Shown: piece by piece, positions 1,949 through 37,948 of the stretch | Numbering within the stretch: position 1 is the first letter of the stretch | Layout: every line of letters starts with the position of its first letter | Origin: Nymphaea colorata | Taxonomy: Eukaryota > Streptophyta > Magnoliopsida > Nymphaeales > Nymphaeaceae | Assembly: GCF_008831285.2 (NCBI RefSeq) | Contig: NC_045141.1 | Coordinates: 14,556,106-14,620,105, forward strand | Length of the DNA stretch: 64,000 nt | Direction of reading: 5' to 3' | The notes under the pieces: generated by a model | The model's input: the letters and a program-made list of their open reading frames with translations, nothing else | What the model was told of the DNA's origin: nothing | Database searches by the model: none | Program-made: the position numbers and the translations under genes

Positions 1949-4428
1949 ATGAGGGGAGAGTTGTCTGCCATTCTGTTCCTGCTCCTGCTCGCATTCTCAG
2001 TGGCCACTTTCACTTCCTACAATGGCAGTGGCACAAGCTCCGCTGCCCTCTCCTTCTTTCGTCTCTCCCCTGTGACTATGTCTGATTCTGCTCCAGCTCC
2101 TACTGATTCTGCTGCCGCGCCGATGCCTGCGCCACCCACCCACTCTGCCCCTGCACCGATGCCTGACTCTGCCCCTGAAATGCCCAACGCCACACTCGAC
2201 ACCGCCTCAAATGCTTCAGCGATCACAGTGGGAATATTACCGACTCCATTAGTTAAACTCTCCGTCTTCTTCTTTCGCTGTTCAATTGAAATGGCCAATC
2301 AGTTAATTTTCTGACTGTTGCTTCTCTCACTGGCTGCAGAGGAAGACGAGAGGCAGCGATGTTGAGATGAAGAGGTTGGAGAAGCTGGAGGAGGGTCTTG
2401 CCAGGTCGAGGGCGGCCATTAGAAGCGCTGTTCTGGGGAGAAACTGCACTTCTGATCGGAAGCGCCGGGGCTTCGTGCCGAGGGGTCCCATCTACCACAA
2501 CTCTTATGCATTTCATCAGTCATCAACTTTACTTTGCCTTTTTCTAAAGAAAGGAAGAGAACTAGTTTCTCAACATAGCATTTTTATATTACATTTAAAC
2601 CGTTTTACTTATATGTATAAATGGTAGTTTATACTAAACTGAAAAATATTCATTGGCTCCTATTATTGTAGATGTTATACATGAACTATCATGCATTGTA
2701 CTATAATAAACAGGAGCTACGTAGAGATGGAGAAGAGGCTGAAGATATGGATCTACAGGGAAGGGGAGCCACCCATTTTCCATGATGGTTATAGCATGGG
2801 CCTGTATTCCATAGAGGGCCATTTCATCCAAGAGATGGACAAGCAGAGGGTGCCATTCATCACCAATGATCCAGAGCAGGCCTTGCTCTACTTCCTCCCA
2901 TTCAGTGTTGAAAGAATGGTCAGGTTCTTTTACAAGAAGGGCAGTACTAGGAACGTTGTAAAACTCATTTCGGCCGTGATCAGTGACTATGTCCAGGTGG
3001 TAGCAAACAAGTACCCATTTTGGAACAGCTCAAATGGTGCAGACCATTTCATGGTTGCCTGCCATGACTGGGTAAATCAACTCATCCACCACTGTTCTTC
3101 AATGTTCTTTGTAATTTCTTCACAATTTCATTGCTCAGAACTTTTTCTATTAAATAGATGGTTACCAAACTTTCAATTGACCATGGGGTAGTGACCTGGA
3201 TCTCATGCGTCCACCCGGTTTCAACATTAAATTTTAAGTTTTCAAAAATGGCTTCCGTTGCCTCCACCCCAACTTATTGTGATTGGCAAACTAAAGAGTT
3301 GTTTAAATGTCACAAATTTATGGAACTTTTCGGAAGCACGATTTGAGGGTCAATGTGCATGCTTGCATATTTCTGCATTGTTTTATAGGAGTATGAATAC
3401 TAGTCTTTACAGATGTCAAAATGCATTGTGGATACAACTTGCTCTGAGATGAGAGTGAAAGCAGCAAGAATATTAAAGTTTGTGCTAAATTTCTAAAGCC
3501 CACATTCATGAAATCATATAATATTCACGTGTCTTTGTAAATTCATCCTCAACTTACTACACAACTTATCTTTGTTTATTTTTTATGATCAGCAACCCCG
3601 TCCTCGTTCTTCTTTTGCTTTTAAGGCATTAAATTCTAAGCACATCTGCCCATGGTTGCTGGTCACCAAGACGACGTACAATAAGGAACCTGATCCCAAC
3701 TTGACGGATCCATCACCCAAGATCCTAAATTAATTCAGCCCTCGCAAACTCACACCCGTGAACACTTTCTCGAGCAAACCAGGCCATTAAGATGCATTCA
3801 TCATTATTGATGCAAATGAGCCCATCTTCAAATATTTCCTAATGCAGAATACGGTTTTCAACAATAAAGGCATACCTACAGTGTTTTGACATTAGTTTAT
3901 CTAATCAATGTTTCCTTCGTCTCGCCGTGGTTGAGTTTCAGGTCACCTTTTCACGTCATGCCCTTTCTTCTACTGTGTTCTTGCAATTTCATGACCTTCC
4001 GTTATTCATAGTCTTTCATACTAACCCTTCGTTCGCCTTCTTTTCATTTATTGTCATTCTTTCCACTAACCTTTTCTTAGGGTTGTATCTAGAGGTTGTG
4101 ATTTATATCTTCTTGACGGCTCATTTGGGAGCAGCGCAACAACAAAGTCTTCAGAGACACCTCCTCATCATTGAATTCTGTAGTATGCCTTGTATACGCC
4201 GATGTCCACTTTGTTGTTCAATTAGAGCACCGTCTTTCGCTTCTTGTCGTGCCACTCTACTGCTTCGCCTATCCACTTTCTCTCTCTCTCTCTTCCCCCC
4301 TTCCTCTGCTATATTGTTTTGTTGTAATGTATATTTTATTCTTTTGTTTTGCTTTTGCGGTTCTTGTATCTAAATGACTTTTTGTTTTCAAATTTGTTAT
4401 GCATTCTCATTTTATCGACCCTATCAAC

Positions 4429-4502
<74 letters not shown>

Positions 4503-5135
4503 GTCAAAAATTTGATGAGGGTGATGTGTAGTGCCAACATCTCAGAAGGCTTCAACCCGAGACAGGATGCACCGCTCCCGGAATTCAACTTCAGGTTTCG
4601 TCTTCCAACAGTCGTCACAACCCCGACTCCACCTTCCTCAAAAAGGATGTTAGCATTTTTTGCAGGTGGCATCCATGGATCCATCAGAAAGTTCCTCTTT
4701 GAACAGTGGGAAGGCAAGGACCCCCAAATTCAAATCTTTCAACGCTTGCCCAGACGCCAAAGTTACAAGGAGCACATGATGAACGCCAAGTACTGCATCT
4801 GCCCAAGTGGGTACGAAGTCGCCAGTCCCAGGCTCACTGAATCCATACTGGCTGGTTGCGTGCCGGTGCCGATTTCCGATGGCTATGTGCTGCCCTTCAG
4901 TGATGTTCTAGACTGGTCTCAGTTTTCGGTTCCAATTCCAGTTCAAAAGATACCCAAACTTAAAGAGATTCTGATTAACATTCCTGAACATTCATACTTG
5001 AAGTTGCAAGCAAATGTTATGAAGGTCCAGAAGCACTTTGTGATTAATTACCCTCCCAAGAGGTTTGATGTCGTGCATATGTTGTTTCATTCCATATGGC
5101 TCAGAAGACTTAATGTGAGGTTATATGATTTGTAG
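1949..5135 (+). pseudogene. GT47 exostosin-family glycosyltransferase, copy A, last-exon acceptor lost
   Basis: Type II Golgi glycosyltransferase of the plant exostosin-like (GT47) family, probably acting on cell-wall polysaccharide; donor and acceptor are unknown. Exons 1-3 are 1949-2227, 2340-2518 and 2714-3071, all in phase and aligned with copies B-D. They encode a hydrophobic anchor (residues about 6-22), an Ala/Pro-rich stem, the MEKRLKIWIYREGEPP motif and the HFMVACHDW end. The exon 4 homology runs from about 4500 to the TAG at 5133-5135 and keeps the CPSGYEVASPR and GCVPVPISDGY motifs. The acceptor and first nine codons of exon 4 are missing; a 62-bp (TA)n tract sits there. No AG upstream in the open frame (from 4374) can replace it, and the first AG inside the exon leads to an immediate stop. 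The exon 2 donor is GTCATC instead of the GTAATC of the other copies. A possible AATAAA lies at 5206. It may still yield a protein truncated after exon 3 (stop at 3189). Confidence 0.78.
4438..4499. repeat. (TA)n microsatellite replacing exon 4 acceptor of copy A
   Basis: 62-bp TA tract abutting coding sequence GTCGTCAAAAAT at 4500. In copy B the matching place (23447-23476) carries the TTTAG acceptor and codons for APKATVKEEA. Confidence 0.93.
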
Positions 5136-6570
5136 CCATCCTTCTTCTTCTTCAGTTGCTTGTCTATTCTCTATTGTCAGCGTTCTCTTCCAACACCGAA
5201 AAGCAAATAAAATGCACCTCAGTTTCACTATTGACATTCATGTGGTGTGGTTATTGTCTTTGGATATGGCTTGCAGTTCGTGTTCATATAAACTCCCATA
5301 TCTCCTAGTAAGCATGCAAGGAAGAAACTGTTTCTTCTAGGCAAAAGGGAAAACATATTGTATGGGAAATCCAATCAGATCAGCCAGACTCTTTGATTCA
5401 TGGATACAGCAAAACCGGTTATACATGAATTGGATTTTTTTTTTTTAAGGAAAAAGGAACATAGAATATGAAACATGCATTATACCATTGAAATCTAGAA
5501 GTGAATCAGATTGATTGGCCATGGATTCAAATCAGTGAATGAGCTGGCGAGTTTTGGAAAATATTTTTGTTGACCACGCAATAGTGCTGCACATGAGCCG
5601 AGTCAAGTTCGAGTTGGGCCAGTTCGAGCTTGTCTCAACTGAAAAAGTTCGATCTCAAACTCGACTCAAAATTGAGTTGAGCTTGACAGAGCATACTCGA
5701 GCTCGACTAGATGATACAACATCGACCTCGAACTTGACTTGTTTAAGTCATTTATGTTAAACATGTCTCACTTCCTTTGACTTGTCTAATTGTTACTCGT
5801 TTAATTATTTTCTCATTGTAATTCAATGTTTATTGTATAATTGCGTTAAGTTGAGTTTAAACGAGGGGGGGGGAGAGTGCAGAAGGCCGGCTTTGGCTCG
5901 ATGGAATACTCTCACCTTTTGTGACTTAGGGGTGTAGCACCTATGAGCATCCAGACGAGAATGTGCAGTTTACACATCCCCGTCCAACTTTTCTATGCCC
6001 TTTGAGCTGCTTTTTTGGATAGTGATTGGGTCAAAAGTTTAAACAAGTTTTCCACTTTCATATTTCACTAGGAACATTTAATTACTTTCTGCTTACTTCG
6101 CATGGTTGGCCATTTTCATTATAATTCTGCTCATTGTTCAGCTACTTGGAAGGACGAAAGCTTGGAGATCATCAATGCAGCAAAATCGCTTATAAGCAAA
6201 CTCTATTGAGTTTCAGAATCCTTATCCTTCATATATAGAAAGCAATCGCATCTCTATCTTGGAAAGAAGAATTAGTGGTTTACTTGAATTAAATGATTTA
6301 GAATGGTAGCAATAGTATTCTAGATGAACAGCAATGCATCAAACAACATTAATGGTTCCTTTTTAAGAAAATACTTTTTATAGCCTTTTACTACAGGTAG
6401 ATTTATATATAGTGCTGTTATTCTTTTTGTCAGATTGCATGCAAGCATACTCGAGTTCAAATTTTGTTGGGAAATTCTCAAAAGTGCAGCTAAAGAAACA
6501 GAAATAGTTGAAAGCATACAAACTATCCACTTAATCTTTTTTGTGAATAACAGGAGTGTGAGCCCAACTC
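5136..6570. other. intergenic, degraded repeats
   Basis: No gene recognised after the copy A terminator region. About 5585-5840 is rich in TCGAG/CTCGA words and is a partial relative of the element at 6570-6918. About 6340-6520 resembles 19790-20000 near copy B, so it belongs to the duplicated segment. Confidence 0.5.
5583..5840. repeat. partial copy of TCGAG-rich dispersed repeat
   Basis: The stretch contains GAGCCGAGTCAAGTTCGAG followed by many GAGTT/CTCGAC words, like the better-preserved copy at 6570-6918. No clear right terminus or target duplication was found. Confidence 0.5.
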
Positions 6571-6918
6571 CCATATAAGGATGTACAACGAGTCGAGCCA
6601 ACTCAGGCTCGAGTTGAACTCGCCCGTATAAGCTTGACTCATGCTATAAAATTGTCGACCTCCAACTCGAGTTAAAACTCGAGTTATAAACTAGTCTAGT
6701 TTTAACTACTCACTCTTGACTTGTTTAAACTCGGCAGGCTTGTGTCTTCACGATTTGTTAATCTTCAGGGGCATGTCGACAGTTTTTGACTAATTTTTAT
6801 CAGCTTTTTATGGTCTTCATTTTCAATTAACAAAACAAAGCATTAATCAAGCAACTTGCAACTTGAGCTCAAGCTGGCCAAGCTCGAGTTCGGCTCCTCG
6901 TTGTACATTCCTACTCCC
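6570..6918. mobile_element. hAT-like non-autonomous element (MITE) with inverted ends
   Basis: The left end GGATGTACAACGAGTCGAGC (about 6579-6598) is nearly the reverse complement of the right end GGCTCCTCGTTGTACATTCC. Flanking octamers ACTCCCAT (left) and ACTCCCAC (right) look like an 8-bp target duplication, which is typical of hAT elements. The interior is about 0.3 kb with no coding potential. The related segment at about 19990-20040 lacks it. Related pieces lie at 5583, 25072 and 56885. Confidence 0.62.
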
Positions 6919-7426
6919 ACCAGTCTTGCACTGTAAAACATACAAATGACCTTAATTTAATAACTAATTGTTAAAAGTACGCCTAGTTTTTTTCCTGATT
7001 AATTAATAACAACTATAATTAAGTTTACTTTTTTCAAATCAATTAATGGAAGGTTGCTTTGTTTAGGCGTGTTTTTTTTATTATTTCTAATTTTTTTCAA
7101 TGTTTTCCTTTTACTATTGTATTTTCTACTAGTACAATGGAATGAAAAAAAGAACTAACGAAATTTATGATCTGTGAGCTGCCGTTGACCCAAAGCAGTA
7201 ACTCTGGAGCCTCCAATATTCGAGAAAGCCTGTTAGAGGTAAAATAATAATCTGTTCACCTGCCACAAACTGTCAACTCCAAAGCCTTTGTGGGGAGAGA
7301 AAGTCAGGGTATTAACTTGAAAGGGGAAATTAAGTCAAGTTTGATGCTGGGATGTAATTATCCATGGTCTAGAAAAAAAAGGTAATAACTTAGCGTGTTG
7401 TCCATCTAGTAAGCTTTTATTTAGAG

Positions 7427-7427
<1 letters not shown>

Positions 7428-7479
<52 letters not shown>
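7428..7479. repeat. (TA)n(GA)n compound microsatellite
   Basis: TA run to 7459 followed by an AG run to 7479. Confidence 0.93.
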
Positions 7480-7480
<1 letters not shown>

Positions 7481-7618
7481 TACTAATTCTAGATTACTTT
7501 ATCTACAAATGAATGTCATGATGTAATTACACGATCCTTAGTAGCATAGTGGACAAGTTTAAGAATTAGCTAGAGCGTGTAATGAGTAAAAGACCCACAT
7601 GGGCATAACTTACTGACC

Positions 7619-8060
7619 TAGGGATGTCAATACGTTCACCTTGAATCAGATATCCATTCAAATCCTTATGAAAAAAATCAGATATGGAAAAAAAATTAGT
7701 ATCTAATTAAAAAATTGGATCGGATCCCGATTTAAAAAATAACATCAGACCATATTCGGATATATATAAACATCCAGTCGGATTCAGATATTTCTAAACA
7801 AATATCCTATAGTTAATGCTTGTACATTTTGAAAATTGGCAAAATTTAGTTCAAAATTTTTTATTAGGATTTGGAAACGAATGCGAAAATTGGATTTGGA
7901 TTGAATTCTGATTGTAAAATTGGATTTCATATTTAGATTTAGATATGACTTTTCCTTGTTTGTATTCTAATCAAAGTTTAAATTTGAATGTGTGAATATC
8001 CAAAACAGCAGATGTGGTTAAAGGTATATTCAATTCCATCTTTTGACATCTAAAGGTACA
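7619..8060. repeat. dispersed GGATTCGGAT-type repeat, copy 1
   Basis: Begins with a GGGATGTCAATAC word and continues with AATCAGATATCC, GGATCGGATCC and similar words. This vocabulary recurs at 25920, 34640, 36240 (inverted), 50220 and 56255. No coding capacity. Ends are approximate. Confidence 0.55.
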
Positions 8061-9841
8061 TTCTACGGTATTCACAGATCTCCCAAAAACCCAAGAACGA
8101 CTATAACAGCACGCAGCATGCATCTGATCTAATAATTACATAATTTTACAAAACCAAGTGAAAGATTAAAAAGAGGCCAGAGCTAGAGATGATGAACTTC
8201 ATAAGCAAAGAACAGTATAAGCAGAGCAGTCACCATTTTTTAGCAGCTGATATTATTCAGGAGAAATCTTAATTTGGAAATTGTTTTGTGAAGCTGTCCG
8301 ACAAAAGGCCAAAGATCTCCCCCTTTCTACTTAACCTCGGAGTCTCGCTACTTTGGGACGTAGGTGAACCCATGGTATACCCATCAATTAGAGGGTTGCA
8401 TTACCACCATTTACAGTCTAGAGGAATAGTGTTCATGAAAACTGAACTGACTACTATGCTCTCAATGGCCCACCAGCTCGACCAACTACACTATGTCGCT
8501 GAAAACTAATTTGGAAACTGTTTAGAGATCCATTATAAATAAGAAGTTACTGTACACTATCAGCTAAGGCCGATGGATGCCTTCCATGGGTAAAGAAATG
8601 TCTCTATGTTAAAATCCTTTTTCTGTGACCTTTGTTGTTTATTTTTTTATTTTCTACATACTTATGTCGGATTCGCCCTTCGGAACATACAATCACAAGC
8701 TTTTTTTTATTCAAAACTTTCCAACCAACCCAACATTCACTGCAAAAACATAGGCATTACCAACAACCTGAACATGTCGGTGAAACATTGTCATGAGTCA
8801 GTAACGGTTTTATTGACGTTTTGGTCAATCGTTGGTGAAGATAGTGACAGTAAACATCAACACCGACATACTGGAGCAACTGTTGATATAGGGACCTTCA
8901 TCTACGTGCTCAACACATAAGTATTGATTATTACCAACGTCCAAGTGCATGGATGATTGGCTCTTGCTGCTGGTTTTGATCTTTTCCTTGAACAAAACCA
9001 AACCTGAACCCCTCTCACAAAACCCATGTTGAAAAGACTAAAATCTTTCCACCTATCTGCTGTATCACCATTGGATGATTTTCAGGATGTGCAAATCATT
9101 CGGTGTAAAGCAAGATTCTGTGCAATATGTAAAGATAAATAACCATGATGCATGGAAGCGATGAACTAAATAGGTTCTTTTGCAGTTGTTTGGCAATAGT
9201 AGTATATTGTTTGGCAATAGTAGTATATTGTCACTGTCTCATAAAAAATCTGTCTTGAAAGATGAAACTGATTCATGGACTACTTGCTATAGTATTTCGT
9301 GCACCTCTCTTATATTTAGGGGCAAATTTATGGAATAATAACAAAGTGTTACCTTTGTCAAATAGACCCTTAGTAGCTGTATAGTAGTAACAGTTTGTTA
9401 CTGCTTCATGCATCTATACAAATTGTCATATGAACATACTTCTTTGAAACATATTCATAGAATAGTACCAAACTGTTTTGAAATGCCAAATGGCCTTGCT
9501 CCATCAGCCGCAAGCCAGCTAACAACTTGCCCAACCAACATACTGCCATCTCGGTTAACTTTTTAGGAGAAACCCCTCCTTTGCTTGCTTTATTTTGTAG
9601 TAGATTCTAATCCAGTCGACCCACATAATCAAACTAACTTGTCAAATATGCAATTTTTCTTGATTTGGAGCATATTATTTATCTTGATTTCAGTATTGGA
9701 AATAAACCTAGCTATGCTATTTTAATTGATATCTGCAAGGAATTGTGATGGCCAATAATAATGATGCATTGGAACTCACATGTAGCGTGAGACCTAGATG
9801 TGATCTTAAAAAGCGCGGTTATGAGAAACCACGTTTGATGG

Positions 9842-9852
9842 TTGTTTTATGT

Positions 9853-9884
<32 letters not shown>

Positions 9885-10250
9885 CTGCCATGGTTGTCGA
9901 GACAACGATGGAGGGCAGCGATGACAACGGCGGTAACGAGATGATGACAGCGGCCAGTGGCGGCGGCAACGAAGACAGTGGAGATTTTTTCATCTTCGGC
10001 GGTAGTTTCTTCATCTTCGTTTCTCTCTTTTTCTCCGACAATGCAGGGTGTCGACTGTCGATGGCACGATGGGTTTGTCTGGCCTCTCTCTATCAGTACG
10101 GCCTCGACGGCGATGGCTAAGCCGCCGATGATGACAGCGGAGAACGGCGATGACGATGGTGGAGACGATGACAACGAAGCTTTTCTTCATCTCTGGTGGT
10201 GGTTTTTTCATTTTCGTTTCTCTCCGTCTCTCACGGTCTGTTTTGGACAA
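9842..10250. other. GC-rich, trinucleotide-biased island with (CT)n
   Basis: A CT run (about 9854-9882) leads into a block rich in GACGGCGG and ATGATGACAGCGG words. An imperfect internal duplication is visible: the half ending in TTCATCTTCGTTTCTCTC (about 9990-10030) recurs as TTCATTTTCGTTTCTCTC (about 10205-10225). Frames are open on both strands, but the peptides are low-complexity and match no family I know. It could be a fragment of a mobile element or an old 5' leader. Confidence 0.35.
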
Positions 10251-11315
10251 TATTTTTCCACAATTGTATCATATGCTGAAAAGTCCATTGCTTTAAATGC
10301 CTTTGTTAGAACGTCTAGGCATGCAAGATGTTACAGGAAGTGCATTAAAAGCTTAACTAAAACAAGTTTTCCACTTTCACATCTTTCAAGCATCATTAAG
10401 TTAATTTCTCCCAGAATTTTGTTAACAAAAGTCACGAGAAAGTTGAACTAACATGATCGGTTTAATGGAATTAGAGTTGTCATTATGATGTGATATAATC
10501 CATGTGCCTTTCCTTTTGCCTCGTTTTTTGGTTCCTTTAAATTCTATCAATCGGACCAACAGTCACAAGCCAACATGTACAGCTACGATTACCAATTAAT
10601 CAATTATTGAGATGTATCTCGACTTGATCTAAACCACATTAATCCAAGTAGGAAAATCTAGGTCTGATTGATCTCTTTCAGGTTTAGTGTAGAAATTTTG
10701 CTACCAGATCTGATTAGCAATCGGACTTGGAAATATGAAAATAGCAGTCTTCTTGTAACCCAATTAGATGACATCTCATCTACCTCCTACTCTTTAAGAT
10801 GGACTTAGGTTCAGGTAGGTCCAACCACATGTGGTGCCCACACTAGATCCGAGTCGGTGCCTGCAACCACTCACTCTCCTAAGCAAGAGATCAGTTTGTG
10901 CCTCTGAGCTAAAATTTTTTGACTCCACCATTGTTCCTTGGCCCTGACTTTTGGTGGCCAGGCCCGGTACTGGGCCGGCCCGATGCCCACCCCTAATTTT
11001 AATGATCCAAATGCCCTTATACCTGAAATAGCAAAAAAACAAAAAAAAAAAGTCACTAACACTTCGTAAAATTCCTTGTAATTTAAAAAAAAATGCAAAC
11101 AATCAAATGTGTAATTTGGTTAAGCTTTATTTTTTGAATTAAAAAATAATTTAAAATATTTTTAACTCTTTTAAAACATACGAAAATAAAATTATCTATT
11201 TACCAGGTTGGCTAGAATCATCTATTTACCAGGTTGCGACTCTATATCTGCCAAGTCAGCTGTGATCGTCATTTAATTACATATTCAAGTTTGCTGTCTT
11301 TTAATTATCACCAAC

Positions 11316-11346
<31 letters not shown>

Positions 11347-11690
11347 AACACTCATATATTGCTTTTCTTCAATTTTTGTTGATGAAAAAAACAAACGTGA
11401 AATCCTGACTGACTTATTTTATTCAACTATTTACATTATAAAAATTTATGAAAGTTAACTCTATAATCCGATGACTTTAGCCCATCTGTCTAATGAATCG
11501 GACCCCTGGTCCCTCTGACTGCAAATCCATGATTTTCACAAACTAAAGTAAATTTTTGATGCCCACTCGAGAAATCCACCGTTTGTTTGAGCTGTGTAAA
11601 TATGTAAAAGAAAAAACTGCTAAAAGGAATCAAAATATAATATATAAATAAGAAATGTGTATTGAGTCTCATTAGTCTAATTGAAGACAC
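10251..11690. other. intergenic upstream of fragment P
   Basis: No gene. About 10955-10990 is a GGCCCGG-rich scrap like that at 53030-53290. About 11125-11290 (ATTTACCAGGTTG twice) corresponds to 20730-21000 upstream of copy B. A TA run lies at 11320-11346. Confidence 0.5.
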
Positions 11691-12346
11691 CCACAGAAGC
11701 ACATACCTGCCTCCGCCAACGCAGCCCAAGGGAGGGAGCAATCATAGAGTGGGGCAATGCCACTCATTGGAGTTGAGCGATCCTTTTCAGTAGAGAATTC
11801 CATCCTCTTCCAATCAGAGACTTCCGAGTACTCAGGCCGGCGGAATCTGCTCAGGAAATAATGGCAGAAGAAACAACAAGTGGCTGCGATGGGGCTTCTC
11901 AGACCAACTGTGGACGAAAGTCTTTAAGGGACCCTTCGTCAATCCTTCTGAAAGAGCTCTAAGAAGAAGGACAAGAAGAAGAAGGCGCGCGCAAACGACA
12001 TGAGGGGAGACTTGTAGGCCATTCTGTTCCTGCTCCTGCTCGCCATCTTCAGTTCCTACAATGGCAGTAGCACAAGCTCCTCCGCCCTCTCCTTCTTTCG
12101 TCTCTCCCTTCTGATTATGTCTGCCCCGGATCCCACCGATTCTGCTCCTGCAACTATGTCTGCTCCAAGCCTCCAACTCCCACCGATTCTGCTGCTGCAC
12201 CCATGCCTGTGTCTGCCCCTGAAATGGCCAACGCCACACAGCACCGTCTCCAATGCTTCAGCGATAGCGGTAGGAATATTATGGGCTCGGTTAACGAAAC
12301 TCTCTATCTTCTTCTGTCACCGATCAATTGAAATGGCCAATCAGAT
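11691..12346 (+). pseudogene. GT47 copy P: 5' flank plus exon 1 fragment
   Basis: 11694-11999 is nearly identical to the 5' flank of copy A, and 12000 is the homologous ATG. The reading frame meets TAG at codon 6 (12015-12017) and is further disturbed, with part of the hydrophobic anchor lost. Homology continues through the Ala/Pro stem and the start of intron 1, ending near AATGGCCAATCAGATCAC at about 12346, where an old copia remnant begins. Exons 2-4 are absent, so no functional enzyme is possible. The strong match to copy A, including non-coding flank, indicates a fairly recent duplication. Confidence 0.85.
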
Positions 12347-12402
12347 CACTTCTATTACTTGTTTTGCATGTGATAGCATAGGTCACATGGCATAACTATG
12401 TT

Positions 12403-12565
12403 GAGTGGCAGAGTCAGATGGGCACTATTCATATGTTATCATAATGAAGGGGCACTTACATGCATAACAAAGTAAATATTAAATAATATTAATGTAAAAA
12501 TAAAAGAAATTTGAGAAGTAGGTATGGGCAATTACTCACACCAGCCTATATGGCTTCGCCACTGA
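12403..12565. mobile_element. small inverted-repeat element inside the copia remnant
   Basis: The ends GAGTGGCAGAGTCAGATGGGC and CTTCGCCACTG are imperfect inverted repeats. CTATG occurs on both sides as a possible target duplication. It splits the remnant's zinc knuckle from its protease. About 0.16 kb, AT-rich, no coding. Related copies with words such as GGGCAATTGCCCAC and GCGAAGTCAGAAATT are at 49920 and 54843. Confidence 0.55.
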
Positions 12566-12804
12566 CTATGCTATGAAACATGTCAATTATGCCGAAAACA
12601 ATGTCATGGAGACCAGCGATGTAAGTCCACTAAGAAAAACCAAGACAGTTGCAGAAGCATTTCACACTACAGCTATTCTTCAAGAAGATACTAGTGGATG
12701 GTACCTAGATTCAAGTGTCATCCATGCCTTAACCAGTTTAGCATGTTTGTCTAATTTTGGTTGTTCAGTTCTTGGAAGACCTTCAAATGACATTTATGAA
12801 GCAT

Positions 12805-12810
12805 GTCAAA
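12805..12810. other. copia target-site duplication, left
   Basis: GTCAAA directly before the 5' LTR. The identical hexamer follows the 3' LTR at 18196-18201. Confidence 0.85.
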
Positions 12811-13477
12811 TGTTATTAGTTTTTTACTTGGCCATATGTAAGTCAACAGTGGGCAATTATCTCTTTCTTCTTAAAACCCTTATTTTGCTTTATGAAAGGG
12901 CTCGACATCTTTCCCCTTTTTTGCCTCACGCCATCATCTTGTGGTATGCTATTTTGGTGGAGAAACTCAAGGAGTGGCCTGCGATTTTGGTGAAGCGTCT
13001 CAAGGTGTCGTCGTCAACATGAAGACTCCACGACCAACTCTCTCGCTTGCTGAAATCTCTTGTGGGCAGTTATTATCTGTGTCGTCTCTAGAAGAAGAGG
13101 TATGTTTTTCAGTTTTGGGGTTATGTGAGGAACATACAGAAAACAGAGAGAGAGAGATTTCGGGCTGAAGGTCACGCAGTAGCATTATTGTCTTGTAAGG
13201 GGATTTTTGTCTATTTTGGCTTCTTGGATCTCACTGTATTTTGATGCTTTATATAATATGAATCCTGCTGGTTTCTCCCCGTGGATGTAGGAAGACAAAC
13301 AGTCTATCCGAACCATGTAATTTGGGTGTCTTCTGTGTGATTGTTTTCTTGTTTCGCTCTCTGCCATTCATTTCACTATTCACTCTCTTGATATTACGAA
13401 CACATATTTGTTTACAGAGTGGCTGTTTTTCACCTTACTCTGTTTTTGCTTGCAATCTGGTCCTAACATACGCAACA
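12811..13477 (+). repeat. copia 5' LTR
   Basis: Starts TGTTATTAG and ends ACGCAACA directly before the primer-binding site. A TATATAA box at about 13250 is a plausible retroelement promoter; the 3' LTR has C in place of its first T. Confidence 0.93.
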
Positions 13478-13479
13478 TC

Positions 13480-13491
13480 TGGTATCAGAGC
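13480..13491 (+). promoter_or_regulatory. primer-binding site
   Basis: TGGTATCAGAGC lies two bases after the 5' LTR. It is complementary to the 3' end of plant initiator tRNA-Met, the usual primer of copia elements. Confidence 0.92.
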
Positions 13492-13546
13492 CAGGTTGCA
13501 AGATTTGTGTTTGTGATAGTTATTTTTGTTGACTGTGACGTCAAAT

Positions 13547-14360
13547 ATGTCAATGACTAAGTTTGAGGTGGATAAGTTTGACGACAAGATTGATTTTGGT
13601 TTGTGGCAAAAACGTGTAAAAGCTATTTTGGTTCAGAACAACTTGCATAAAGCCTTGCTTGGAAAAGAGAAATGAGGGATTAAAGATGTTGATTGGGATG
13701 AGTTAGACCTGAAGGCAATGAGTACAATTCAAATTTGCCTAGCTGATGAAGTGATGTATAATGTTGCAGATGTAGATACTACGACTGATTTGTGGGTTAA
13801 ATTAGAAAATTTGTATATGTCGAAGTCTCTCACAAATAAGTTGTATTTAAAAACAGCTCTATAGTTTACGTATGTCTGATGGGACAAATCTGCTTGAGCA
13901 TCTGAATGCCTTCAATAGGTTAATTACTCAACTTCGCAGTGTTTGTGTTAAGATGGATAAAGAAGACCAGGCCCTTCTTCTTCTTTCATCTATGCCTAAA
14001 GTGTATGACCATCTTGTGACTACTATTCTCTATGGCAAAGACACTTTAAAGCTGGAAGAAGTCAAGACTATTTTGCTTTCAAATGAAGCCAGACATAAGC
14101 CAAATCATGGAGAAAATTTAATGGTAAAGGAACATGGTCACGAGAGAGGCCGTCAAAAGCATAAATTCAGCAAGAAGTTTAGTTTTCGATCCAAGTCAAA
14201 AGGTAGAGACAACAGATGCAGATATTGCAAAGAAGAGGGTCATTGGAAATTTGATTGTCCAAAGCTTAAAGAAAAATACAAACAAAAAAAGAAAGCAGCC
14301 GAAGAAGCAAGTGTAGCATCGGATGTCGATGGAGATGTGCTGGCCATTTCCTCAGGTAAT
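13547..14360 (+). pseudogene. copia gag region
   Basis: ATG at 13547 opens a gag-like frame (KFDDKIDFGLWQKRV). It is broken by TGA at 13673 and TAG at 13862, and shifts frame near 13862-13872. The remaining gag part includes a basic stretch and the CCHC zinc knuckle CRYCKEEGHWKFDCP (about 14215-14262), which binds the element's RNA. No intact capsid protein is possible. Confidence 0.9.
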
Positions 14361-17430: not shown

Positions 17431-17526
17431 ACATGTTTAGAGTCCAAGGGAGAATGGACATTCATATTGAACAGGATTGATCTTATATGTTTTCTGGATT
17501 ATGACCAAGCCAAAAAGATGGAGTTT

Positions 17527-18195
17527 TGTTATTAGTTGTTGACTTGGCCATATGTAAGTCAACAGTGGGCAATTATGTCTTTCTTCTTAAAACCCTTATT
17601 TTGCTTTATGGAAGGGCTCGACATCTTTCCCCTTTTTTGCCTCACGCCATCATCTTGTGGTATGCTATTTTGGTGGAGAAACTCAAGGAGTGGCCTGCGA
17701 TTTTGGTGGAGCGTCTCAAGGTGTCGTCGTCAACATGGAGACTCCACGACCAACTCTCTCGCTTGCTGAAATCTCTTGTGGGCAGTTACTCTCTGTGTCA
17801 TCTCTAGAAGAAGAGGTATGTTTTTCAGTTTTGGGGTTATGTGAGGAACATACAGAAAACAGAGAGAGAGAGAGATTTGGGGCTGAAGGTCACGCAGTAG
17901 CATTATTGTCTTGTAAGGGGATTTTTGTCTATTTTGGCTTCTTGGATCTCATTGTATTTTGACGCTTCATATAATATGAATCCTGCTGGTTTCTCCCCGT
18001 GGATGTAGGAAGACAAACAGTCTATCCGAACCACGTAATTTGGGTGTCTTCTGTGTGATTGCTTTCTTGTTTTGCTCTCTGCCGTTCATTTCACTATTCA
18101 CTCTCTTGATATTACGAACACATATTTGTTTACAGAGTGACTGTTTTTCACCTTACTCTGTTTTTTCTTGCAATCTGGTCCTAACATACGCAACA
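17527..18195 (+). repeat. copia 3' LTR
   Basis: Matches the 5' LTR over its full length with about 19 substitutions. A purine-rich AAAAAGATGGAG just upstream (about 17512-17523) is a candidate polypurine tract. Confidence 0.93.
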
Positions 18196-19665: not shown

Positions 19666-19716
19666 ATATATATATATATATATATATTGTGTGTGTGTGT
19701 GTGTGTGTGCGTGTGT
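19666..19716. repeat. (TA)n(TG)n microsatellite
   Basis: TA run to 19687, then TG run with one GC interruption. Confidence 0.92.
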
Positions 19717-21550: not shown

Positions 21551-24109
21551 ATGAGGGGAGACTTGTCAGCCATTCTTTTCCTGCTGGTGCTCCTATTCTC
21601 TGTGGCCATCTTCAATTCCTACAATGGCAGTGGCACAAGCTCCTCCGTCCTCCCCTTCTTTCGTCTCTCCCCTGTGACTATGCCTGCCCCGGCTCCCACT
21701 GATTCCGCTTCCGCAACTATGTCGGCCCCAACTCCTGCCGATTCTGCTGCTGCACCGATGCCTGGGTCTGCCCCTGCACCGGTGCCTGAGTCTGTCCCTG
21801 AAATGCCCAACGCCACACCCAGCACCGTCTCCAATGCTTCAGCGATTACAGTAGGAATTTTGTAGAATCGATTAATTAAACTCTCTATCTTCTTCTTCTT
21901 TCACTGATCAATTGAAAGGGCCAACCAGCATCTTGGACCGTTACTTCTGTCTCTGGCTGCAGGAGAAGACGAGAGGCAGCGTTGTTGAGATGAGCAGGTT
22001 GGAACAGTTGGAGGAGGGCCTTGCCAGGTCGAGGGCCGCCATTAGAAGGGCTGTTTTGGGGCGAAACTACACTTCTGATCGGAAGGGCCGGGGCTTTGTG
22101 CCGAGGGGGTCCATCTACCACAACTCTTATGCATTTCATCAGTAATCAACTTTTCTTTGCCTAATTATTTTAAAGAAAGGAAGAGAACTAGTTTCTCAAC
22201 ATATCATTTGTATGTTACATTTAAATCGTTTTTAGTTTATAATACTAAACTGAAAATGTTCTTTAGCTCCAGTTATTATAGATGTTATATCTGAACTATG
22301 ATGCATTGTACTGTAAACAAACAGGAGCTACATAGAGATGGAGAAGAGGCTGAAGATATGGATCTACAGGGAAGGGGAGCCACCCATTTTCCACGATGGT
22401 TCTAGCATGGGCCTGTATTCGATAGAGGGCCAATTCATCCAAGAGATGGACAAGAAGAGGCTCCGCTTCATCACCAATGATCCAGAGCAGGCCTTGATCT
22501 ACTTCCTCCCATTCAGCGTTGAAAGAATGGTCAGGTTCTTTTACAAGAAGGGCAGTACTGTGAACGTTGTAAAACTCATCTCGGTCGTGATCAGTGATTA
22601 TGTCCAGGTGGTAGCAAACAAATACCCGTATTGGAACATCTCGAACGGTGCAGATCATTTCATGGTTGCCTGTCATGACTGGGTAAATCAAATCATCCAC
22701 CACTTTAGTTTTCTTTTTATTTCTTCACCTGTTATATCATTTGGAACATCGATCTTTGCTTTACTGTGATCGATAAACTGAGGAACTGTTTAAATATGAC
22801 TACTAATACCCAGATTCATGAAATCATATAATAGTCACGGGTCTTTGTAAACATATTCATCCTTAATTTGCTACACAACTTGTCCTTTGTTTATTTTTTA
22901 TGATGAACGACGCCGTCCTTGTCTTTTGTTTGCTTTTAAGACATTAAATTCCAAGCACATCTGCCCACGGTTGCTGATGACCAACACGACGTATAACACG
23001 GAAGCCTGCCCCCAGCTACTTGATCGATCCGTCACCCAAGATCTTAAATTTCAGCCCTTGCAAAACTCACGCCAATGAACATTTTCTCCAGCAAACCAGG
23101 CCATTAAGATGCATTCGTCGTTATTGATGCAAATGAGCCCATCCTCAAACATTTCCCAATGCAGAGTCCGCTCTTAACATTAAAAGTGTGAGCTGCACTT
23201 TCCATTTTTTTAAGTACGTGAAGGTACTATTGCCTGCAGATTCCGATTCATATTTCAATAATAAACTGGACGTGATGAAGCATTAATTGCCTTACTTTCT
23301 TGACATTATGTGACTATGGGTTTCCAAACTAGTGTCAGTTTAAGATACTGTTGAAATTATTATTATCTAGAATAGATTATATCTTGAATTACCAACAAGA
23401 ACTGCATGAACAGTGTTACCGTGCTGATCATTTTAGCGATGTTTAGGCGCCAAAAGCTACAGTAAAAGAAGAAGCCGTCAGAAGTTTGATCAGGGTGATG
23501 TGCAATGCCAACACCTCGGAAGGCTTCAACCCTAAAAAGGATGCACCGCTCCCGGAATTCAACTTCTTGTTTCGTCTCCCCACAGTCGTTCGAGTCCCAA
23601 CTCCACCTTCCTCAAAAAAGATGTTGGCATTCTTTGCAGGAGGCAACCATGGTTCTGTCAGAAACTTCCTCTTCCAACAGTGGGAGGGCAAGGACTCCCA
23701 AATTCAGATATTTCAACACTTGCCAAGACGAAAAGGTTATACTCAACACATGATGAACGCCAAGTACTGCCTCTGCCCAAGTGGGTATGAAGTTGCCAGT
23801 CCCAGGCTCACTGAATCTATACTGGCTGGTTGCGTGCCAGTGCCGATTTCCGACGGCTATGTGCTCCCCTTCAGTGATGTTCTAGATTGGTCTCAGTTTT
23901 CGGTTTCAATTCCAGTTCGAAAGATACCCAAACTTAAAGAAATTCTGATTAACATTCCTGAACATTCATACTTGAAGTTGCAAGCAAATGTTATGAAGGT
24001 CCAGCAGCACTTTGTGATTAATGACCCTCCCAAGAGGTTTGATGTTGTGCATATGTTGTTTCATTCCATATGGCTCAGAAGACTTAATGTGAGGTTATTT
24101 GATTTGTAG
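21551..24109 (+). CDS. GT47 exostosin-family glycosyltransferase, copy B
   Basis: Probable Golgi type II glycosyltransferase of the plant GT47 group (probable glycosyltransferase At5g03795-like), likely working on cell-wall polysaccharide; substrate unknown. Exons 21551-21850, 21963-22141, 22325-22682 and 23447-24109 join in frame to 499 residues, with GT-AG introns of phase 0, 2 and 0. Residues 1-5 are cytosolic, about 6-22 hydrophobic anchor, and about 25-98 an Ala/Pro/Ser stem with degenerate SAPAP units. The linker carries SRAAIRRAV and FVPRG. The exostosin domain starts near SYIEMEKRLKIW (about 161), passes HFMVACHDW (to 279), then CLCPSGYEVASPR (about 387-399), GCVPVPISDGY and DVLDWSQF. 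The start is supported by alignment with copies A and P. It is the closest intact relative of copy A, with shared flanks. No internal lesion seen. Confidence 0.92.
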
Positions 24110-26717: not shown

Positions 26718-29700
26718 ATGAGACGGTACTTCAGTGCCATTGTTCTGTTCTTGGTGCTCGCTTTCTCCGTTGCCATCTTCAACTCCTACAGTAACAGTAC
26801 CCGTACGACCTTCTCTGATATCACCTCCCTCGCTATTCCTGCAACTCCGAACTCCAGTCTCAACGCCGCCAGCAATGCACCGACAACTGTGGTAGGAATA
26901 CAAATTCAGTTTGATTAAGCTTCTTGTCTTCTTCAGCCATTGACTAATTGAAACTTCCGGCCAGTCTATCTCATGATTGTTACTGCTCTCCCCCCCCACC
27001 TCTTTGTTTGCAGAGGAAGAAGGGAGATGCCAGAACTCAGAAGAGGAGGTTGGAGAAGATCCAGGAGGGTCTTGCGAGGTCGAGGGCAGCCATTAGAAGG
27101 GCTGTTCTGGCGAGAAACTACACTGCTCAGAAGCGCCAGAGCTTCGTGCCCAGAGGGCCCATCTACCGCAACCCCTATGCATTTCATCAGTAATCCGCTT
27201 TGCTTTGCCTTTTCGTAAAAAGAAAGAGAACCAATTGCGTTTTCTATCTGTTGACATGGATAAAGTTTTTCAGACATGAACTTTATCTTTTTGTTTCCAA
27301 AGGCAATCTGCCCTTTTTGAGAATTTGATCATGCCCTTTTTGAGAAATTGATCATAGGATTTTGTCTTCGTTTCTTTTCACATGAGATTAGGCTGACCCT
27401 GTCAGATCTCGCCAATAGAATCACACCTTGAAAGTTGAACCATTAATCTTGTAGAAGAGTTCAACCTCAATTTTTTCAGTATGATAATCACTGATCAGTT
27501 CCTCTGCAATGAGGCAAGGCCTGATTGAGGTCCTTTTCCCCTTTTAGTTTTTTATTGGAGGAACCTACACTTAAAGTAGACATACTTTGTTTGCTTGCCT
27601 AGCGACATAAGACTCTGAGATCAGTACCTCCACTCCTGGAGTTTATGAAATCAAACCAACGATCGGCCCCTTCCTAGCTGCTGGATGGTGTATTTCGGCT
27701 GCGTATGAGCTGATATTTCAATAAAATAATGGCAAAAATTACTTTTCCTTTTTCATTTGAAACTGCCTAATACAGCCCGGCAGGAGCCAATGGCTGTAGT
27801 ATTTTTTATGTTCAGGTCTCTGGTATAAACACTGAACAGGATATTCACAACGTTGGTTCCAATGCGGCAATTGAGCCATTATATTTAGATGTGAAACTAA
27901 GATCTTCCTAAGAACAAAGAATGCAACCGTATTGCAATGTCGTTTTCTTCTCCAGCTAAAATAAGCAGAGTCTTCCATGGTGCTAACAGGAGCTACATAG
28001 AGATGGAAAAGAGGCTAAAGATATGGATCTACAAGGAGAGGGAACCACCCATCTTCCATGACGGTGCTAGCTTCGGCTACTACGCAGTGGACGGCCATTT
28101 CATGAGGGAGATAGAGAAGCAGGGCTTTCCCTTCGTCACAAACAACCCTGAGAATGCCTTGCTCTTCTACCTTCCCTTCAGTATTGAGAGAATGGTTGGC
28201 TTGGTCTATGAACCGGCCACTCATGATCGGACCTTTCTCAAGACCATGATCAGCGACTATGTCCAGGTCATATCAAGCAAGCATCCTTATTGGAATAGGA
28301 CAGATGGTGCAGATCATTTCATGGTCTCTTGCCATGACTGGGTGTGTGCGCAAAGATAATCCCTCCACCTTCATTTGTTTATGAAATTTTTACGGAGACT
28401 TTCTGCTTTTGTTGGTATAAGAACACACCTTTGAATTTCAATACCTTTCATTCAACTACCTTTTTCTGTAGTTAACAATTCATATCTAGTTGTGTTTTTG
28501 TTAATCCTTCAAGAGTTAAACATGTTTCTGTAATGCTTTTGACTGTTTATTAAACTTTTCTTGGTGATTTTCTCGTAGCAGTGTTTTCATTATTTGTATA
28601 ATTTTGAAAGGGGCATCTTGGCCTTGTCAAATCATTTTGAAGAAATTGTTTAGTTGGCTTGGTCATGTTAGTCGGTTCCCAAACTGAAAATACACTTGCT
28701 TACATAACCATAGAGTTAGGAAGCTAGTGTGGACCAGCAAACTTACTTGCTTGCATACCATAGAATGAGGAAGCTAGTTTGGAGGCTTGCCCTTCAAAGA
28801 GGTCATTTGATTGGTGGAAAGAACGCTTTTGAACAGTGTTCTACTCCATTCCAGGTGTCTCAAGGTGAGAGGTTGGACGTTTGGAATACGTAAAAGTGTT
28901 CTTCAAGAGCACTTCTTAGTGTTGTTCGCATCCGTTGTTTGATAGGTCACGCTTGAACAGAGCACCTTATTCTTGCAGCAAACAAACGACCTTTTTGAGA
29001 GACTGTCTCCAAACACAATGCCCAACTTTGTCATTTCAACTCTCCGGTAAAACAAACATGGAGACTTGCATTCTTGTGTCTGTCATCTCTACAAATTTGG
29101 CCCTAAGATACCAATGAACAACTACAGCAGAATCATTTCTTGGATTCTGTATTATTCTCCTTCAAGAAAGGAGTTGTGAAATGTGACTCCAGGAGGACCA
29201 ATCCATCTTCACATTGTACCTTTGTAAAGTAAACTAAATAAATGTTTACATGGCAGACCTCTTCTCATCTAAGAAGTTCAGATTAAATGAGACCAAATTA
29301 CCTCCTTTACATTAACTTCAAGTAATTAAGAAAAAAAAAAAGAGCTTGCTGAGAAATCAACTCCAAGAACTGAGTGGTAGTTCAGATAAAACCCAAGAAG
29401 GTACATAGGAGATGTCACTTAGACTGTCAATGATCAACTCGATAGAATGCAGCTAGATCCCCTCATCTATATCCTCAAGTCTTAAGCCCTCAACTTGCTT
29501 GAAAACTCTTTCTTTTCTTTTTCTTTTTTTCATTTCATCCAGCAAACTTGACTAGATAGCTATGTGTTTATCATTGTCACTTTCTTGTTTCTCTTATGTG
29601 GTGTCTAATAACACGCAATTAAATGTCTTCAAAGAGGTGCAAGTACATAGTATGAAGGTATCATGATGACAGAAGATGAACCGATCCCTTTCTGGGTGAA

Positions 29701-30862
29701 AACTCCATAGATTGGTTTGACAAAGTTCATCAGGACACATAATTAAAGACAATGGTTGTAACATATTTCCTTGTCAACCCAGTCACAAGAATTCACAGAT
29801 AACATAACGAGTTCCTTCATATAAAGTGATTTACTTGTTCAAATTTTAGTCGTTAAAGCAAATTTATAGAAAAATGGAATTTGAAGAAATATGACTCATA
29901 AGTAGAAAGGCTTAATTGAGAGCAAAAAATATGCCTTGATGCACCTAAACAGTGCCCAAATGCCTGAAAAATCTTCAAGAGCAGAGGTCTAGAACTCTGA
30001 ACAGTGTGTAAAAGCATAAAATCTGCCATTCGTAGCCACTGCCCATGAGGGCCAAAATCTGTCTCTGCTTTACTAAATTCGGTATCTCGTAATGGCATCT
30101 CTTTCATATCTTTATCTTGTGTTATTTTGATTGCTTTCACATTGATTTAATTTATTTGAGACACCAATATCTTTGATTGACTTATATCTCTTGACACAGG
30201 CACCATATGCCACTGAAGGCCTAGATGTCTTGAAGAATTTTATTAGAGTCCTTTGTGCAGCAAACACTTCAGAAGGATACAATGCAAGAAAAGATGCGAG
30301 TCTCCCAGAGTTCATCTTTAGATTCGAGCTCCCAGGGCACACTCAAAATCCTTCCCCACCTTCATCAAAAACCCTGCTGGCATTTTTCGCTGGAGGCAAC
30401 CATGGTTCTGTTAGGAAATTCCTTTTTGAACAGTGGCATCATAAGGACCCACAAATTCAACTCTTTGAACGCTTACCAAAGGGCCTAAACTACACAGAGT
30501 ATCTGATGAACTCCAAGTACTGCCTTTGCCCAAGTGGATATGAAGTTGCCAGTCCTAGAATCACTGAATCCATATTGGTTGGCTGTGTCCCTGTACCAAT
30601 ATCTGATGGCTATGTTCTCCCCTTTAGTGATGTTCTCGACTGGTCTCACTTCTCGGTTCCAATTCCAGTTCCAAGGATACCTGAAATCAAGAAAATTCTT
30701 ACTGCAATTCCTGAAAGCACATACTTGAAGTTGCAGGCAAATGTCTTAAAGGTTCAGAAGCACTTTCTTCTTAATGTCCCTCCAAAGAGGTTTGATGTTA
30801 TGCACATGGTGTTGCATTCTATATGGCTCAGAAGACTTAATTTGCAGCTGCATGATTTGTAA
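26718..30862 (+). CDS. GT47 exostosin-family glycosyltransferase, copy C
   Basis: Same enzyme family and predicted Golgi role as copy B. Exons 26718-26891, 27014-27189, 27990-28341 and 30200-30862 join in frame to 454 residues with GT-AG introns. The open frame extends upstream to 26643, but ATG 26718 matches the start of the paralogues (MRRYFSAIVLF). Hydrophobic anchor at about residues 5-22. Exon 1 is only 58 codons, so the Ala/Pro-rich stem of copy B is largely missing. Conserved MEKRLKIWIYKE, HFMVSCHDW, CLCPSGYEVASPR, GCVPVPISDGYV and FSDVLDW are all present. Intron 3 is 1.86 kb. A possible AATAAA lies at 31069. More diverged from A/B than those are from each other, so probably an older duplicate. 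Confidence 0.92.
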
Positions 30863-35293: not shown

Positions 35294-35939
35294 ATGATGA
35301 GGAAGAAATTTTCAACCTTAGCTGTGCTGTTGGCGTTTGCACTCTCCATGGTCGTCCTCCATTACTCCTACAATGGCGGTAGCACGTCCTCCTTCGCTGC
35401 ACTCACCTTCCTTCTTTCATCCGCCAACGCTAGACCCGCTTCTTTCTCACCTTCCACAGGGAACACCAAGAGCGTCGTAAATGCTCCAACTTTTCCTATA
35501 CTACATAAGCACAGTATTCATTCTCTTCTTCATGCATCGACTAAAGTAAGCTCCCAACCAGTTCATCTGACTGCTGCTGCTGCTGCTTGATCATCACTCT
35601 GTGATTCCAGAGGAAGAGGGGAGGCATTACTCGTGAGAAGAGCAGGTTGGAGAAGATGGAGGAAGGGCTTGCCAGATCGAGGGCATCCATTAGAAGGGCC
35701 ATCCTGTTCAGAAACTACACCTCTCGCAAGCGGCAGAGTTACATCCCAAGAGGCTCTGTCTACCATAACCCATACGCCTTCCATCAGTAATCAGCTCTGC
35801 ATTGCCTTCTGAGAAAGAAGAGTACTCAGTTCATCTTCCTAGCTGAATTTCTCATGCGTTTGCTCTGTTGCCATTTGAACCTTACCATTGGTTCCTACTC
35901 TTTTAATTTGAAAACTGAGGCATGCTTATTGCTTATCAC

Positions 35940-36013
<74 letters not shown>

Positions 36014-37948
36014 TGTGTGGGTGTTTCTTACAGAGAACATTTTAAAATACAAAGACAAAGAAACTGATTTCAATTCTAATTTACTGAAGTACTTGGCAGT
36101 GACCTTCTAAGATTTTGTTCCATTAGTTTTCTAAGAAGTCACTCAGAATTAATCGCATATCAGTAGCCATGTACCACATATTGGCACTTCCTTTTAAGTT
36201 TCTTTCAGAAAAATAGAATCCACCTAGTTTCAGCCTTTAGATATTAGCAGATCAAATTCGAATTGGATATACTCTTCATCATGTCTGTTTTTTTTTTTAT
36301 ATTTATGTATTCAGATTTGATTGCAAATGAAGAAAAGTCATATCTAAATCTAAAATCCAATTTCACGGTATAAATCCTATTCCAAGCTGATTTTTACGTT
36401 CATATCTAAATCCAAATCCAAATTTTGAAATATAAGATATTTATTTAAAATTAAATCCAATCCAAATCCAAAACAGAGTCCGATCGGATGTCAATTCTTA
36501 CATCTGAATTCAATCCAATTTCTTAATTGGATATTAATTTTTTTTCTGCATCCATTTTTTTCGGAACAGTTTGATCGGATGTCCGATTCAATAGGCTAAA
36601 TTGAAATCCTTAATTCTAATCAGAATCTTGGTGTTGCAGAAGCTACATAGAGATGGAGAAGAGGTTGAAGATATGGGTCTATAAAGAAGGTGAACCACCT
36701 TTAGTCCATGATGGTCCATATAGTGATATATATTCGATCGAGGGCCAATTCATCAACGAGATGGACCAACATGGTCCCTTAATCGCCAACAATGCTGAAG
36801 AAGCATTGGTCTATTTCCTTCCCTTCAGTGTCACCATAATGGTTCGCTTCGTCTACAAAAAGCGTTCTTATGATATGGCACCTCTCCAAACGATAGTAAG
36901 AGATTATATCCAACTCATCTCAACTCTGTACACATATTGGAATCGGACCAAAGGCGCAGATCATTTCATGCTCTCCTGCGACGACTGGGTAAAGATTGTC
37001 CGCCATTTTCTTCCTTTGATCATACTTCCTGCATTATTGTTCTATCTGTAATGATTATAAATCTGAACATGGAATGGAGCTAAATATATAACCTCTGAAA
37101 GTGGAGATCTAATGAACATTGTGTTTTTGAAATATATATGTTCCAAAAACATCTGAATTATTAGCAGAGGTTCGTGATGCTGCCAGTTAACAGTTTATTG
37201 TCATGGATGAAATTTTGTCTTTGTTTTATTGTTTGTCGCGCCATAAACATCTTCAGTTTTGCTTTGTCTTGATGTTCAGGCACCGTATGCTGCTAGAAAA
37301 GACCAAGATCTCTTTAGGAACTCCATTAGAGTCCTCTGCAATGCCAACAGCTCGGAAGGCTTCAATCCAAAGAAGGATGTCCCTCTCCCAGAGTTTAACA
37401 TCAGGAACTTTGAGCTCCCAGCTCCCATTGATAATTCATCCCCACCTTCATCGAAAACCATCTTGGCATTTTTTGCAGGAGGTAACCATGGTGCCATTAG
37501 ACACGAGCTTCTCCAACAATGGAAGGGCAAGGACTCACAAGTTCTCGTCTTTCATCGCCTACCAAAAGGCCAAAACTACACAGAGCTCATGCTCAAGTCG
37601 AAATACTGCCTCTGCCCAAGTGGGTATGAAGTGGCCAGTCCCAGAATCACTGAAGCCATACTTGTTGGCTGTGTTCCTGTGCTGATATCTGAAAGCTACG
37701 TTCTTCCCTTCAGTGATGTTCTTGACTGGTCCCAGTTCTCTTTGTCGATTCCGGTTTCCAGGATACCTGAGATCAAGGAGATTCTTAGCGCCATTCCTGA
37801 AAGCATATACTTGAAGTTGCAGTCAAACGTCTTGAAAGTTCAGAGGCACTTTGTGATTAATCGTCCCCCGAAGAGGTTCGATGTTATGCACATGTTGTTT
37901 CATTCCATATGGCTCAGGAGACTGAATGTGAGACTGCATGATCTCTAG
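35294..37948 (+). CDS. GT47 exostosin-family glycosyltransferase, copy D
   Basis: Same family and predicted Golgi role as copy B. Exons 35294-35545, 35611-35786, 36640-36988 and 37280-37948 join in frame to 481 residues. Two ATGs are adjacent (35294 and 35297); I chose the first. The frame also opens at a non-ATG codon upstream, which I rejected. Hydrophobic anchor at about residues 7-24. The stem is Ser/Ala/Thr-rich but not Pro-repetitive. Conserved motifs: MEKRLKIWVYKEGEPP, HFMLSCDDW (Asp for His in the usual CHDW), CLCPSGYEVASPR and FSDVLDW. GCVPVLISESYV replaces the array's PISDGYV and is nearer the plant family consensus. Intron 1 is only 65 bp. Intron 2 carries a 70-bp TA tract and an inverted dispersed repeat. 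It is the most diverged array member. Confidence 0.91.
35942..36011. repeat. (TA)n microsatellite in intron 2 of copy D
   Basis: 70-bp TA run well inside the intron, away from both splice sites. Confidence 0.95.
36240..36600. repeat. dispersed GGATTCGGAT-type repeat, copy 4 (inverted, intronic)
   Basis: Reads as the reverse complement of the other copies (ATCCAAATCCAAATTTTG, CCGATCGGATGTCAATTC). It lies inside intron 2 of copy D and ends about 40 bases before the acceptor. Confidence 0.55.

Follow-up and report, generated by a model that had tools for sequence, protein, structure and literature searches.

How did a gene in a tandem glycosyltransferase array come to have a TA repeat where its last splice acceptor should be, and has the change killed it? 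The window, by which we mean the whole 64-kb stretch of DNA analysed, carries an array of plant GT47 (exostosin-type) genes in a single orientation. An earlier note on this DNA singled out one of them, copy A, as an otherwise intact gene inactivated by a microsatellite. We compared copy A with its paralogues, and used copy B, its closest copy, as the reference.

The GT47 array and the parts of copy A

The genes and exons under comparison are as follows; a slash within a sequence motif marks the splice junction.

1949..2227, + strand: copy A exon 1, open frame, sites colinear with B; donor ACA/GTGGGAAT
2340..2518, + strand: copy A exon 2, CTGCAG/AGGAAG ... TCATCA/GTCATC
2714..3071, + strand: copy A exon 3, acceptor AACAG/GAGCTA; phase-0 donor TGG/GTAAATC
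4500..5135, + strand: copy A exon 4 remnant, codon 10 to stop; 90% DNA identity to B from 4502
21551..24109, + strand: copy B, intact four-exon paralogue and reference for copy A
26718..30862, + strand: copy C, intact four-exon paralogue
35294..37948, + strand: copy D, intact paralogue of four exons; intron 2 contains a TA tract of 70 bp (35942-36011)

Copies B, C and D are complete: their introns are GT-AG, and their frames stay open for 499, 454 and 481 residues, respectively. In all three we see the clear AG acceptor and the GC(A/G)CC(A/G) start of exon 4 that had been described for them: TTTAG/GCGCCA in B (AG at 23445-23446), CACAG/GCACCA in C, and TTCAG/GCACCG in D. A scan of copy B and of copy A exons 3 and 4 against the Exostosin profile PF03016 (cut-off 33.4 bits) matched the B protein to nearly the whole profile (E=1.1e-59, 202.6 bits). 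Exon 3 of copy A encodes the first part of the GT47 domain (profile positions 2-112, E=5.3e-17, 62.5 bits) and the exon 4 remnant the second (positions 126-290, E=9e-36, 124.1 bits). Each passes the cut-off alone, which places copy A in the GT47 family; set against a plant GT47 exostosin-like glycosyltransferase, it is without about positions 113-125 of the profile, which fall between the two pieces. A sequence search of solved structures matched no chains other than those of EXT1 and EXT2, and the best stretches of these miss the part lost in A, and a predicted structure of the exon 4 half of copy B was worthless (mean pLDDT 36.9) and set aside.

The remainder of copy A is well preserved. Exon 1 encodes an N-terminal hydrophobic stretch and a proline-rich stem, and its only differences in length from that of B, of 11 and 4 residues, keep the frame. 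Exons 1-3 when joined are open, nothing interrupts the exon 4 remnant before its stop at 5133-5135, and we found no internal stops or frameshifts in the exons. Two AG acceptors and three GT donors are present. The description of copy A as otherwise intact, with an exon 4 that stays open past the TA tract to its stop, therefore holds.

The exchanged border of intron 3 and exon 4

Between exon 3 and the exon 4 remnant, three further features matter.

3493..3868, + strand: part of intron 3 homologous to B (22803-23184); BLAST, 84.0% identity over 387 columns
3869..4437, + strand: unrelated segment, 569 bp, without detectable homology to intron 3 of B, C or D
4438..4499, + strand: perfect TA tract, 62 bp, period 2, 31 copies, 100% match

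The TA tract directly abuts codon 10 of exon 4 (residue 10 of exon 4 in B), just as had been noted. The first in-frame stop upstream of the remnant is a TAA at 4371-4373, and the sole AG within 4371-4520 lies at 4518, which bears out the claim that none occurs between 4374 and 4500. The acceptor is genuinely missing in the present assembly. The tract itself is less telling: ten TA tracts of at least 16 bp occur within the 64 kb, the longest of them (70 bp) in intron 2 of the intact copy D, so intronic TA tracts of such length are unremarkable here, and the real feature is the missing acceptor.

Comparison with copy B shows how much was exchanged. Homology between A and B ends at 3868, 569 bp ahead of the TA tract, and from 4502 (B 23476) the two match again at about 90%. 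Counted without gaps over successive 10-base steps, identity goes from 8/10 to 2/10 at 3869, and from 8/10 to 4/10 in the step just before 4502. Between these borders 633 bp in A (569 bp of non-repeat DNA, 62 bp of TA and 2 bp) stand where B has 291 bp (23185-23475) that are without counterpart in A, 262 bp of these being intron with the acceptor in it, and 29 nt (23447-23475) belonging to exon 4; nine codons are missing in A. The 569-bp segment aligns to the introns of the other copies no better than shuffled sequence: it scores 21 against the B intron tail (shuffle mean 20.5; 85/200 shuffles reach the score), 25 against a longer B stretch (23.4; 53/200), 26 against C intron 3 (26.0; 101/200) and 25 against D intron 3 (22.3; 37/200), in contrast to the neighbouring intron sequence at 3499-3868, which scores 451 against B (shuffle mean 20.5). 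Scores that match shuffled sequence rule out a diverged but homologous intron end. BLAST of A intron 3 against the window, and of the A region against the rest, found no second copy of the segment in the window.

The start of intron 3 also differs. At 3092-3498 copy A has 407 bp against 106 bp in B, about 300 bp more, with only patchy similarity to B (score 30; best of 200 shuffles 29). Given this second difference, the history of change in intron 3 is longer than one event.

We suggest that copy A is a tandem GT47 duplicate that has undergone rearrangement in its last intron and last exon, and that it is probably a young unprocessed pseudogene. The exchange of 633 bp for 291 bp indicates, from the alignments, that DNA was both inserted and deleted, with an edge at the TA tract, and not that a repeat changed in length. 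We infer that unrelated DNA carrying the TA tract came into intron 3, and that a deletion, which on the evidence of one junction would have ended at the tract, took away the 3′ end of the intron together with its acceptor and codons 1-9 of exon 4. The two steps may have coincided, or the deletion may have come later. Copy A has what is expected of an unprocessed duplicated pseudogene, in that its introns are kept, intact tandem paralogues adjoin it, and one lesion, the absence of an acceptor at the normal place with the loss of nine codons, blocks the normal product. It differs from the usual unprocessed pseudogene with a lost splice site in having a single lesion, without sign of long neutral decay. 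The damage is of an ordinary, common kind for a duplicate gene, and not the unusual lesion that the earlier note had seen in it.

The mechanism which that note had proposed, expansion or slippage of a microsatellite over the acceptor, does not account for the exchange. Microsatellite length changes at splice sites are known, and copy A resembles them in having a dinucleotide tract at an intron/exon border, at the very place where the acceptor is expected. Slippage alters tract length, however, and cannot explain how 291 bp disappeared and 569 bp of non-repeat DNA arrived; in copy A the flanks are not both kept with tract length alone changed, the exchange having reached hundreds of bases into the flanking DNA. 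With 291 bp of B missing and 569 bp of non-repeat DNA ahead of the tract, we regard pure expansion as very improbable. It is rather unlikely that the true exon start was instead lost in assembly, through a contig join or gap fill at the TA tract. TA tracts are difficult to sequence and assemble, a perfect 62-bp tract lies exactly at the break, and outside the break copy A has the look of a working gene; both the 569 bp and the TA beside codon 10 could stem from a wrong gap fill. Yet non-homology starts 569 bp ahead of the tract, a plain contig join via shared TA would still need real TA beside codon 10 of exon 4, and in copy D the assembly has a 70-bp TA tract flanked by normal exons.

A special case of the insertion and deletion that we favour would compress both into a single event: the 569-bp segment and its TA tail would be a 5′-truncated LINE whose insertion deleted target DNA. 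On the + strand from 4117 the segment reads RLIWEQRNNKVFRDTSS, which we take to resemble the end of plant LINE polymerases, and the TA repeat is located where a 3′ tail would be. Such a loss has a precedent in the first exon of BrCER2 of Chinese cabbage, where a 130-bp partial LINE-1 (BrLINE1-RUP) came in and 40 bp were lost, with no target-site duplication; the same paper states that LINEs may end in simple sequence motifs (PMC10368883). RTE elements of moths and butterflies offer another, for they often persist as the C-terminal end of the polymerase plus a simple-repeat 3′ end, many microsatellites of these insects being RTE 3′ ends (PMC2887409). Copy A is like BrCER2 in having foreign DNA at an exon and target DNA lost, but in the cabbage gene the source is known (PMC10368883), whereas copy A has gained 569 bp plus TA of putative LINE origin and is missing 291 bp. 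The loss of these 291 bp relative to B at the same place could come from insertion-mediated deletion or, with an identical outcome, from two separate events. Against a LINE, the RLIWEQRNNKVFRDTSS frame has no Pfam match, one viral-contig scan with the stretch found no relative, a stop directly ahead of RLIWEQRNNKVFRDTSS makes a fresh copy of an active element unlikely, and no plant LINE with a TA tail is named among the literature matches listed. We do not rest our explanation on this motif, and consider a LINE possible but doubtful.

Pfam searches of four frame stretches of the 569-bp segment gave two weak matches below cut-off, both on one minus-strand stretch, and Rfam found no family at gathering score over the window. 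A viral-contig scan with B exon 4 returned no relatives. Within 3800-4520 there are three short two-copy families of direct repeats (27, 13 and 10 nt) and 46 inverted pairs; the 25 pairs listed all lie in the TA tract, one of them reaching a single base past it at both ends. Between 4300 and 4600 a scan for bacterial promoters and terminators, which is not meaningful for plant DNA, found nothing. That TA tracts can be weak points has a precedent in human cancer cells, where expanded TA dinucleotide repeats form replication-inhibiting structures and depend on the WRN helicase, according to a review (PMC11311767), which serves here as analogy only.

Upstream of copy A, the homology of a repeat copy (492-609 with 7182-7302) stops no more than 10 bases from another TA tract, of 48 bp, at 617-664. 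The partner near 7300 (7182-7459) runs on for about 125 bp and then meets a further TA tract. The tract at 617-664 may be a second border of homology, which is only suggestive, its far flank having no clear partner.

Selection on copy A and the age of the lesion

If copy A died long ago its exons should have decayed. A codon model of exons 2-4 (386 ungapped of 401 aligned codons; tree A+B against C+D) put omega at 0.32 for the A branch and 0.24 for the rest of the tree; when B was also left free, the values were 0.30 for A, 0.27 for B and 0.24 elsewhere. The estimate for A is loose, values from about 0.15 to about 0.8 lying within 3.84 units of the profile maximum, but neutrality over the whole branch (omega_A = 1) is rejected (p = 0.025), in a test where a recent death would not show. 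There was no difference between omega_A and omega_B (p = 0.84) or between omega_A and a common value (p = 0.50). We find no accelerated decay of copy A: omega is similar in A and B, and the two are about equally diverged from C and D. Over exon 4 from codon 10, A differs from C at 155 sites and B at 164, and from D at 169 and 167, respectively.

Lesion counts agree with this. With a dS of 0.081 on the A branch, 3.4 stops would be expected in the coding pieces had the whole branch drifted neutrally, and only 3.3% of 1000 simulations had none. Drift also predicts about 8 frame-changing indels, and none is observed; this expectation takes its rate from the A/B introns (9/15 indels frame-changing, 651 aligned bases) and assumes that 40% of the A/B change fell on A. 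Even over a quarter of the branch the chance of zero lesions, stops and indels combined, is about 0.05, and a death of copy A older than that is therefore unlikely. Exons 2-4 of copy A thus appear to have been under purifying selection for most of their separate history.

One part of exon 4 calls for care in this reading. At four-fold sites A and B differ at 5/45 in the last 119 codons of exon 4 but at 11/32 in the 92 codons with which the remnant begins (p = 0.02), a step that is absent from the A-C and A-D comparisons (p = 0.61 and 1.0). The segments 4776-5135 in A and 23750-24109 in B are very alike at silent sites, and the similarity stops shortly past the stop codons. The 3′ 357 bp of exon 4 look like a product of gene conversion between A and B, which could mask older decay or lesions in this part of copy A.

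Constraint and intact frames together imply either that the lesion is recent or that copy A survives with a shortened exon 4. For the young pseudogene that we favour, the intact remainder and the past purifying selection would mean that the break is recent. Persisting constraint fits a still-working copy A equally well, and there is one site at which such a gene might be spliced.

4564..4568, + strand: AG/GAT candidate acceptor, first AG past the tract in frame with the phase-0 donor; the exon would begin at 4566

We think it unlikely that copy A still works through splicing shifted to this in-frame CAG/GATG, with an exon 4 that has dropped residues 1-31 of the B exon. Besides offering the first in-frame exon start, the site is CAG in A only (AAG in B and D, AAA in C), a change from AAG to CAG on the A lineage. 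Amino-acid changes on that lineage number 3/21 codons upstream of 4566 and 6/189 downstream (one-sided p = 0.049, for a split chosen post hoc; at least 3 changes occur in 10/190 windows of equal length), and silent changes in exon 4 number 0 upstream and 12 downstream; these tallies leave out 6 upstream and 13 downstream differences that are unassignable. Exons without stops or frameshifts and an omega well below 1 would also suit a living gene. However, five other AGs, at 4518-4560, precede 4566. None of the exons that they would open, at 4520, 4532, 4546, 4549 and 4562, is in frame, and these would run for 3, 56, 35, 34 and 46 residues before a stop, respectively. Two of the five end in TAG and CAG, which are usable acceptor contexts. 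A/B divergence upstream is ordinary, at 10/63 against 50/567 (p = 0.11; 57/190 windows reach it), 6/10 of the upstream differences have no lineage assignment, and the part that would be lost contains the residues R-V-x-C-x-A-N-x-S-E-G common to B, C and D. In its full form, this history would have AAG become CAG after the rearrangement and so make the acceptor at 4566, with copy A since evolving as a GT47 enzyme that has a 31-residue deletion inside its GT47 domain and the TA tract in its new intron end; to that we would give little credence.

The claim that copy A is inactivated stands in part. The normal exon 4 acceptor is gone, and splicing of the type seen in B-D is impossible; an in-frame CAG/GATG is present at 4566, and the exons carry no second lesion. 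Judged by its sequence, copy A is likely but not provably inactivated, and it is this loss of function that we infer in calling it a pseudogene. Read so, copy A would be a clean young case of a spare gene copy losing a splice site, and its three intact neighbours serve as controls. It also carries a caution: as comparison with a paralogue shows, a repeat that marks where an exon is broken may do no more than bound one side of a larger rearrangement. No paper on this locus was among the results listed by a literature search.

Neighbouring elements

A fifth, truncated GT47 copy lies between A and B at 11657-12347, where a 5′ flank and exon 1 are homologous to A (84%) and B (79%). Its start is at 12000 and its codon 6 is TAG, and BLAST of A and B against 5601-20800 found none of its later exons; it is apparently an older dead relic. 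Downstream of it, at 12811-18195, is a copia-type LTR retrotransposon with repeats of about 670 bp (12811-13477 and 17527-18195, 96.9% identical) and gag, integrase and RVT_2 matches between them.

Two stretches may derive from other mobile elements. At 57-315 we saw by eye what we take to be a tRNA-like sequence, with box A/B look-alikes GTATAGCGCAGTTGG ... GGTTCGAATCCC and then an A-run, which may be a SINE; the window-wide Rfam scan reported nothing for it. An open stretch at 32507-32887 (minus strand) resembles a LINE reverse transcriptase (QGD...LLPYLF), with no Pfam match up to E=1. Farther along are pieces of an ANTH-domain gene at 45850-47996 (minus strand; PF07651, E=7.8e-17 and 8.9e-4, the second below cut-off), and two tandem duplications, at 53268-53544 and 55303-55679, with units of 140 bp and 188 bp that match at 96% and 98%, respectively.
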